Assembly (NCBI GenBank): GCA_945860945.1
Contig: CAMASG010000020.1
Location: 1-37,638 of the forward strand
Reading direction: 5' to 3'
Length of the DNA stretch: 37,638 nucleotides
Source of the DNA: Akkermansia muciniphila
Lineage (GTDB): Bacteria > Verrucomicrobiota > Verrucomicrobiia > Limisphaerales > SIAT01
The position numbers were made by a program, and so were the translations under genes. Under the pieces are notes generated by a model. That model did not search any database. It was not told the origin of the DNA and saw only the letters and a list, made by a program, of their open reading frames with translations. Shown here in pieces: positions 12,406-36,882 of the stretch (its first letter is position 1; each line of letters begins with the position of its first letter).

Positions 12406-12449
12406 CCGTGTCATCCGTGCACGACAACCGTGTCATCCGTGCACGACAA
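12406..12449. repeat. Perfect 22-bp tandem duplication ccgtgtcatccgtgcacgacaa x2
   Basis: Direct reading: units 12406-12427 and 12428-12449 are identical; a related cgcgacaag occurs just upstream at about 12395. Confidence 0.9.
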
Positions 12450-36004: not shown

Positions 36005-36072
36005 TGGACGAAGATTAACAAAACCTCACGACGGTTGGGATATTCAAAATGCCGACGCCGATGAAGATGATG

Positions 36073-36303
36073 ATTCCTGCGCGGGGGAAGAGGAATCCCG
36101 CGCGATGGAACGTCTCACCGACGTTCAGGACGAACGTTCCGACGCGATGGATTGACGTTCCCCTGCTCTGGAAGAGCGTGCCGACGGAGAGGAACGACGT
36201 TCCGGGACAGCAGCACAGCATTCCCGACCTCGGGCACGCCGTTTCCACGCTCAGGGTTGTCGTTCCGACACATCGGAAAGCCGTTCCTACGCCCCGGAAA
36301 TCA
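36073..36303. repeat. Array of 11 contiguous degenerate 21-bp repeats with internal dyad symmetry
   Basis: Units start at 36073, 36094, 36115, 36136, 36157, 36178, 36199, 36220, 36241, 36262 and 36283, with no indel. Approximate consensus GTTCCGACgcnnnGGAAcgaC. Confidence 0.88.
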
Positions 36304-36507
36304 GAAAAACACGGCGTTTTAGTCTGTTTCTGCACCAGTTAAAAAAAGTGGCTGAGAAAGTTCCCATCACGGATTTCCCTGTGTATTAATATATGTAGGG
36401 AGAGATAGGTTTCCAATTTGAAGCCTGTTTCTCGCTCGGGCAACCACTATGTGGGCGCCTAAGCCAAAGTCTCGTCTGCGTTGAGCATACAAACAAAAGG
36501 CCAAAAT

Positions 36508-36882
36508 ATGCCCACTAACCACATCGCAGAAACCGCAGACAACATCAACCTCGGCTGGTCAGGCTGCTGCCCTGACACGATCTTCGGCGGGGTCACGTTC
36601 CAATACCATCAGAGCGGCCTCATGGCCTATCGCGATACGGAAACGGAGGTGGCTTGGCACGAAAATCAACTTGCCGGTGCGCGAGCGCGTCGCGATTTGC
36701 AACGCGACGAACTGAACGGCGTCAACCAACGCTGTGTCCATGGACTGCTCTGCCATCCTGAACATGGCGATGACTCGCCGCTCTATGGTCAATGGGGCTA
36801 CACGCGCCGCTCCGACCGCTCCAGCGGTCTGACCCGTCCGGACAATGAACCGCCCGTCACTGGCGACGGTTCAAACACCTAG
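36508..36882 (+). CDS. Hypothetical protein
   Basis: MPTNHIAETADNINLGWSGCCPDTIFGGVTFQYHQSGLMAYRDTETEVAWHENQLAGARARRDLQRDELNG...; no overlapping better candidate; family not recognised. Confidence 0.5.
   Translation: MPTNHIAETADNINLGWSGCCPDTIFGGVTFQYHQSGLMAYRDTETEVAWHENQLAGARARRDLQRDELNGVNQRCVHGLLCHPEHGDDSPLYGQWGYTRRSDRSSGLTRPDNEPPVTGDGSNT

Follow-up and report, generated by a model that had tools for sequence, protein, structure and literature searches.

Tandem arrays of 21-bp units with locus-specific half-sites lie upstream of small-protein gene families in several bacterial phyla

We find that genes of three small-protein families, here termed W, S and F, are preceded by a tandem array with a period of 21 or 42 (in a few cases 20) at 114 of 152 upstream regions, against 4 of 157 downstream regions, and that the array thus pairs with the gene in an upstream-only placement. 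Carriers of this unit include Verrucomicrobiota, Bacteroidota, Acidobacteriota and Spirochaetes. The analysis started from an array in a 37,638-nucleotide stretch of DNA (hereafter the window; it forms contig C20 of the draft genome G000, which is 2.63 Mb in size); an earlier note on this DNA had recognised the array itself, which is real, but missed its link to small-protein gene families. On the best reading of these sequences, the array would be the cis-acting member of a recurring pair, whose other member is a small-protein gene.

Unit alignment bears out the description of the window array as eleven units in an exact, indel-free 21-bp register at 36073-36303, in which C occupies position 5, and G position 15, of 11/11 units; in addition, positions 4 and 14 are kept in 10/11 units, and average identity among the units is 52%. 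Inverted half-sites, GTTCC and GGAAC, alternate in orientation and occur once per about 10-11 bp, and the example singled out previously, GGAACGACGTTCC, is indeed found at 36191-36203. Self-match at lags 21, 42 and 63 averages 0.53, whereas 2000 dinucleotide shuffles reach at most 0.354 at the best of periods 15-30, and the 21-bp periodicity is far beyond chance. The array is also the strongest period-21 segment of the window (score 27.5; runner-up 9.7), and its dyad symmetry reaches a z of 3.75 (locus L331). The autocorrelation segment extends from about 36058 to 36304, so that the array edges are soft, by less than one unit. Tandem Repeats Finder did not report the array, because its units are too diverged. 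Elsewhere in the window, positions 12406-12449 hold a perfect tandem duplication of 22 bp, CCGTGTCATCCGTGCACGACAA.

Table 1 Features of the window locus and of the two further arrays of the host genome that carry the same word
Feature	Position	Strand	Description
Array, eleven degenerate 21-bp units	36073..36303	.	Consensus GTTCCNACGCNNNGGAANGNC
Spacer, array to gene	36304..36507	+	204 bp; no intrinsic terminator found
Family W gene	36508..36882	+	124 aa, predicted mostly helical, array upstream
Sister array, contig C6	624-917		14 units; 126-bp higher-order repeat
Sister array, contig C62			11 units

The gene downstream of the window array, whose reading frame is cut off from the array by an in-frame stop at 36460, defines family W through its homology to the ORF that follows an Akkermansia array, L150 (BLASTP E 1e-10). 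Family W is present in 29/196 genomes of the order, with six paralogues in the host genome. Family S, of about 220 aa, turns its start codon towards the array in 10/10 array-first loci at a distance of 27-301 bp, and is present in 8/41 genomes of one Bacteroidales family, with up to 30 matches per genome. Family F, found adjoining array L181, combines a helical N-terminus with FnIII-like sequence. The predicted structure of W is long and helical (pLDDT 91, pTM 0.63) and found no match in the PDB; that of S consists of a helical domain and an FnIII-like domain (pLDDT 91, pTM 0.50). Searches of Pfam and NCBIfam returned no convincing family for W or S, PADLOC matched no family to W, and no recognised DNA-binding domain was found in W, S or F. 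Homology between W and S was rejected (hhalign probability 0.3%), as was a phage or plasmid origin of W, which had no tblastn match in phage and plasmid collections. Within S, several contig-end gene fragments in genomes G587 and G596 cover the same C-terminal or N-terminal stretch with identical scores, as though identical segments had come to be common to these paralogues by gene conversion or shuffling.

The pairing was assessed gene-first, by scoring periods 8-63 across the 800 bp that precede W, S and F genes and taking the best one, with the downstream side as a control, in draft genomes and with uncertain start codons. Upstream of W genes the best period is 21, 42, 63 or 43 in 26/46 cases, whereas it is so in 0/42 downstream; for S genes the figures are 38/42 upstream (periods 21, 42, 20 in four and 41 in one) and 3/49 downstream, and for F genes 14/23 and 0/24. 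A second set of W and S genes from other genomes, which were chosen for holding at least one array and include Spirochaetia, Oscillospiraceae and Acidobacteriota, gave an upstream array in 36/41 and a downstream one in 1/42. Neighbouring control genes score in 20/157 cases, all of them in W or S loci or in the window, where the array can be counted from the other side.

A second feature of these loci is that array spacing is kept while the sequence is replaced. Among the W paralogues of the host genome, array words range from GTTCC/GGAAC through GTTC/GAAC, GGTT/AACC and a CTTTT/AAAAG-like form to TTG/CAA arms, and the paralogue on contig C9 has no clear array. Likewise, S paralogues that are 91-93% identical have different array words (L376/L381 and L414/L415), although the words of L376 and L381 look related. 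The orthologous arrays L342 and L343 differ by a sole indel, of one 21-bp unit. Period 20 is largely limited to one clade of S paralogues whose words differ, and consequently the period seems to follow the protein clade; the clade comprises G584:C415, C374, C317, C552 and C106 (L414, L415, L419, L421 and L422). Two other pairs of loci are of note in their own right. Related W genes of two congeneric species, at G002:C50 (L356) and G000:C9 (L395), are about 80% identical over their shared block, with an eight-unit upstream array in one and none in the other. At L345 and L396 (G174 and G160) the array and gene are about 95% identical while the sequence past the outer end of the array is unrelated, and the array border is here a rearrangement breakpoint.

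An array-first search for TTCC-N8-GGAA recurring every 21 bp, a gapped pattern of 20 bases, matched at least 118 stretches in species genomes, where about one is expected by chance under equal base frequencies. The matches come from Bacteroidota, Verrucomicrobiota, Acidobacteriota, Spirochaetes, Cyanobacteria, Bacillota and others, and a few single ones in GC-rich Streptomyces resemble chance or coding sequence. Outside the search seed, 463 of 492 spacings in the 118 arrays are multiples of 21 and the remainder are mostly off by one; with free gaps of 0-14, essentially all of the matches listed are spaced by 21, and a reversed-pattern control gave none. The helical phasing proposed earlier is supported, in that arrays hold to 21 bp (a few to 20 or 22) under changing sequence, and the suggestion that the window array is a local accident is excluded. 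In viral contigs, TTCC arrays of period 21 number 20 stretches (13 of them on both strands), compared to 12 (5 on both strands) at period 22 and 0 at period 20; a loop one shorter or longer gives 5 (3) and 9 (3), and a CCTT/AAGG control 9 (1). TTCC-type arrays of 21-bp units occur on both strands in some of the IMG/VR contigs L245-L264. Across 37 dereplicated consensuses, covariation between free positions is strongest at 7-12 (z 4.8) and 6-13 (z 3.8), pairs that extend the dyad inward. We reject a universal TTCC/GGAA motif as largely an effect of the search pattern, because the arrays found gene-first carry other words; GTTCC/GGAAC is the motif of the window locus and is not general. A W or S gene adjoins the array in only 14 of the 118 array-first loci, meaning that most arrays are solo, or that partner families are still unrecognised. 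At L174, L203 and L207, other uncharacterised, helical-looking proteins start 160-260 bp from arrays, and these are possible further partner families.

The word of the window array recurs in two further arrays of the host genome, on contigs C6 and C62. These two have one flank in common (77% over 264 bp including the array), which the window array does not share. The flank itself (G000:C6:400-620 and its C62 counterpart) contains CTGTTTCCTCTAAAAATCACC together with GCACCTTGGCGTCTTGGCGGTTTAGC, the latter being a short repeat-like motif. Of the order's 196 genomes, 10 gave matches to a covariance model built on sequence only, some being arrays with other words that keep the same CC-N8-GG skeleton. 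No orthologue of the window locus was found in the two other genomes of the genus.

Inverted half-sites, which the earlier note had seen in the window, are real across loci: by column frequencies with column permutation, 45 of 60 gene-linked arrays are dyad-symmetric at P<0.05, and 15 lack a significant dyad. Within units, however, the two arms show no compensation, since arms from the same unit are no more complementary than arms paired across units (104 tests, Stouffer 0.29; nearly perfect arrays leave the test little power), and compensation is also absent from the host genome's own arrays. This favours half-sites read in duplex DNA over RNA hairpins, and a hairpin per unit was rejected. 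As expected of a dyad repeat, each strand of the window array folds better than shuffled sequence (z -3.25 and -3.77). An array-wide giant palindrome was also rejected (unit-order permutation, P 0.43-0.99). Between the array and the gene of S loci, a Bacteroidota -7 box is found in 10/38 cases in sense orientation, against 1 in antisense (1.8 expected), which places the array upstream of the promoter in those loci; at some S loci only 1-30 bp remain between the end of the array and the called start, too little for a promoter if that start is called correctly.

The explanation that we favour, with a probability a little below even, is that of a cooperative protein-binding array, phased at two helical turns and acting in cis on the downstream gene. 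Here, tandem inverted half-sites every two turns (21 bp, rarely 20) would precede, typically by 20-300 bp, a gene whose small protein product has a helical N-terminal part (W at the window, S or F elsewhere). The array would act as duplex DNA, and its half-sites, recurring every 10-11 bp or so in alternating orientation, would all lie on one face of the helix, such that a dimeric or polymerising protein could load cooperatively along it and then control the downstream gene, or nucleate a complex beside it. As half-site words are particular to their loci, the simplest reader would be the locus's own protein, acting autogenously; from sequence, the encoded protein is a candidate reader, and a dedicated regulator is possible instead. 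Near-identical paralogues with different words (L376/L381, L414/L415) are a poor fit to tight co-evolution of protein and word. The solo arrays of the same word on C6 and C62 could represent extra binding sites. A more tentative proposal, which we regard as possible rather than probable, is that these loci form an undescribed, multi-phylum class of units whose small proteins each recognise the array beside their own gene, phased at two turns and specific to that locus. Such recognition might take the form of a self-nucleating nucleoprotein filament, an orthogonal autoregulator, or a selfish or defence module, with words diversifying fast and the protein setting the spacing.

Helically phased sites adjoining the gene of their binding protein are familiar from iteron and centromere arrays (plasmid Rep iterons, ParR/parC, TubR/tubC), in which cooperative loading is combined with autoregulation, and the genes are replication or partition genes with known DNA-binding folds. 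The present arrays are comparable, judged by how they would work, in that helically phased repeats lie beside a gene. However, W, S and F genes are mostly on large contigs, reach about 30 paralogues and have no such fold. REP and BIME elements are intergenic palindromic repeats present in many copies, with one sequence per family. These elements, treated in PMC3733652, are not known to form phased 21-bp tandem arrays with locus-specific words. TIGR-Tas systems (PMC12045711) similarly place short tandem units next to a small-protein gene, yet TIGR units consist of 8-12-nt edge and loop repeats split by two variable 9-nt spacers, with 36-nt guides and Nop-domain proteins, whereas the present units are 21 bp throughout and have no spacers.

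Several alternative hypotheses may account for the pairing. One is an RNA-level unit, in which the array is transcribed as a repetitive RNA (an antitoxin like that of type III systems, or a hairpin array) and the protein is a toxin or an RNA-binding partner. Type III toxin-antitoxin loci (ToxIN, CptIN, TenpIN; PMC5086642) also have a tandem array directly upstream of a small gene and a sporadic distribution; locus-specific words, the occurrence in several copies, the folding of both array strands and the 7-12 and 6-13 covariation between arrays, which suits hairpins too, point the same way. However, type III loci combine a pseudoknotted RNA antitoxin with a Rho-independent terminator that separates the array from the toxin gene (PMC5086642), whereas an intrinsic terminator lies between array and gene in only 2/23 W and 0/41 S loci, not above antisense. 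Dyad half-sites without within-unit compensation, the promoter-like box that follows the array in S loci, and predicted structures that are helical (W) or helical plus FnIII (S) in place of the ToxN endoribonuclease fold, with no type III toxin family matched, all argue against it, and we consider an RNA unit unlikely. A contingency promoter, whose unit number would tune downstream expression in two-turn steps while holding the helical face constant, could draw on the position of the array upstream of that box, on the whole-unit indel between L342 and L343, and on higher-order repeats of 126 bp and 42 bp that show duplication of units. It appears improbable, given that, in contrast to fast-slipping loci, the arrays of the window, of C6 and C62 and of several W genes are old and degenerate, with units 52% alike.

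A mobile or neutral minisatellite, that is, a dispersed repeat without a function of its own, has its closest model in BrickBuilt of Porphyromonas gingivalis, a minisatellite/MITE of imperfect 21-23-bp tandem repeats (Klein et al. 2015, PMC4596501). Both have many intergenic copies per genome, leader and tail flanks and limited indels, and further points in its favour are the many copies without a W or S gene, the extended flank common to C6 and C62, and the different upstream contexts of the L345 and L396 array-plus-gene blocks. BrickBuilt, however, has a 23-bp unit, one sequence shared genome-wide, IS5-type terminal inverted repeats and no linked gene family (PMC4596501), while our arrays precede W, S or F genes and change word from locus to locus, with the W paralogue words differing even though three arrays share one. 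An upstream-only link to three gene families across several phyla, words unlike those of one element's copies, and a window copy lacking the flank of C6 and C62 make this explanation doubtful. Finally, a repetitive heptad peptide encoded by the array, as the earlier note had considered, would agree with 21 being a multiple of 3, and the open frames reported across the window array do exist on both strands (97 aa on the plus, 106 aa on the minus). Yet no frame is common to the arrays: those of the window are not kept in the sister arrays, open frames vary between arrays of the same motif, and the L147 and L196 arrays are closed in all six frames. Moreover, periods 20 and 22 occur whereas 18 or 24 lead in no gene-first locus, and neither window ORF matches Pfam, leaving a peptide very improbable.

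The array-gene pairing fits none of the known kinds tested. Intergenic tandem-repeat variation is reported to be frequent in Planctomycetota (PMC9426551), and this may concern related arrays. In the open-access literature we found no description of the array-plus-gene unit, and its novelty is provisional. Standard annotation splits the unit into an 'intergenic repeat' and a 'hypothetical protein', although it is recognisable as one unit in several phyla. If the protein does not read its own array, the conserved spacing still needs explaining; if it does, the natural pairs of word and protein would constitute a data set on how recognition diversifies under a fixed geometry.
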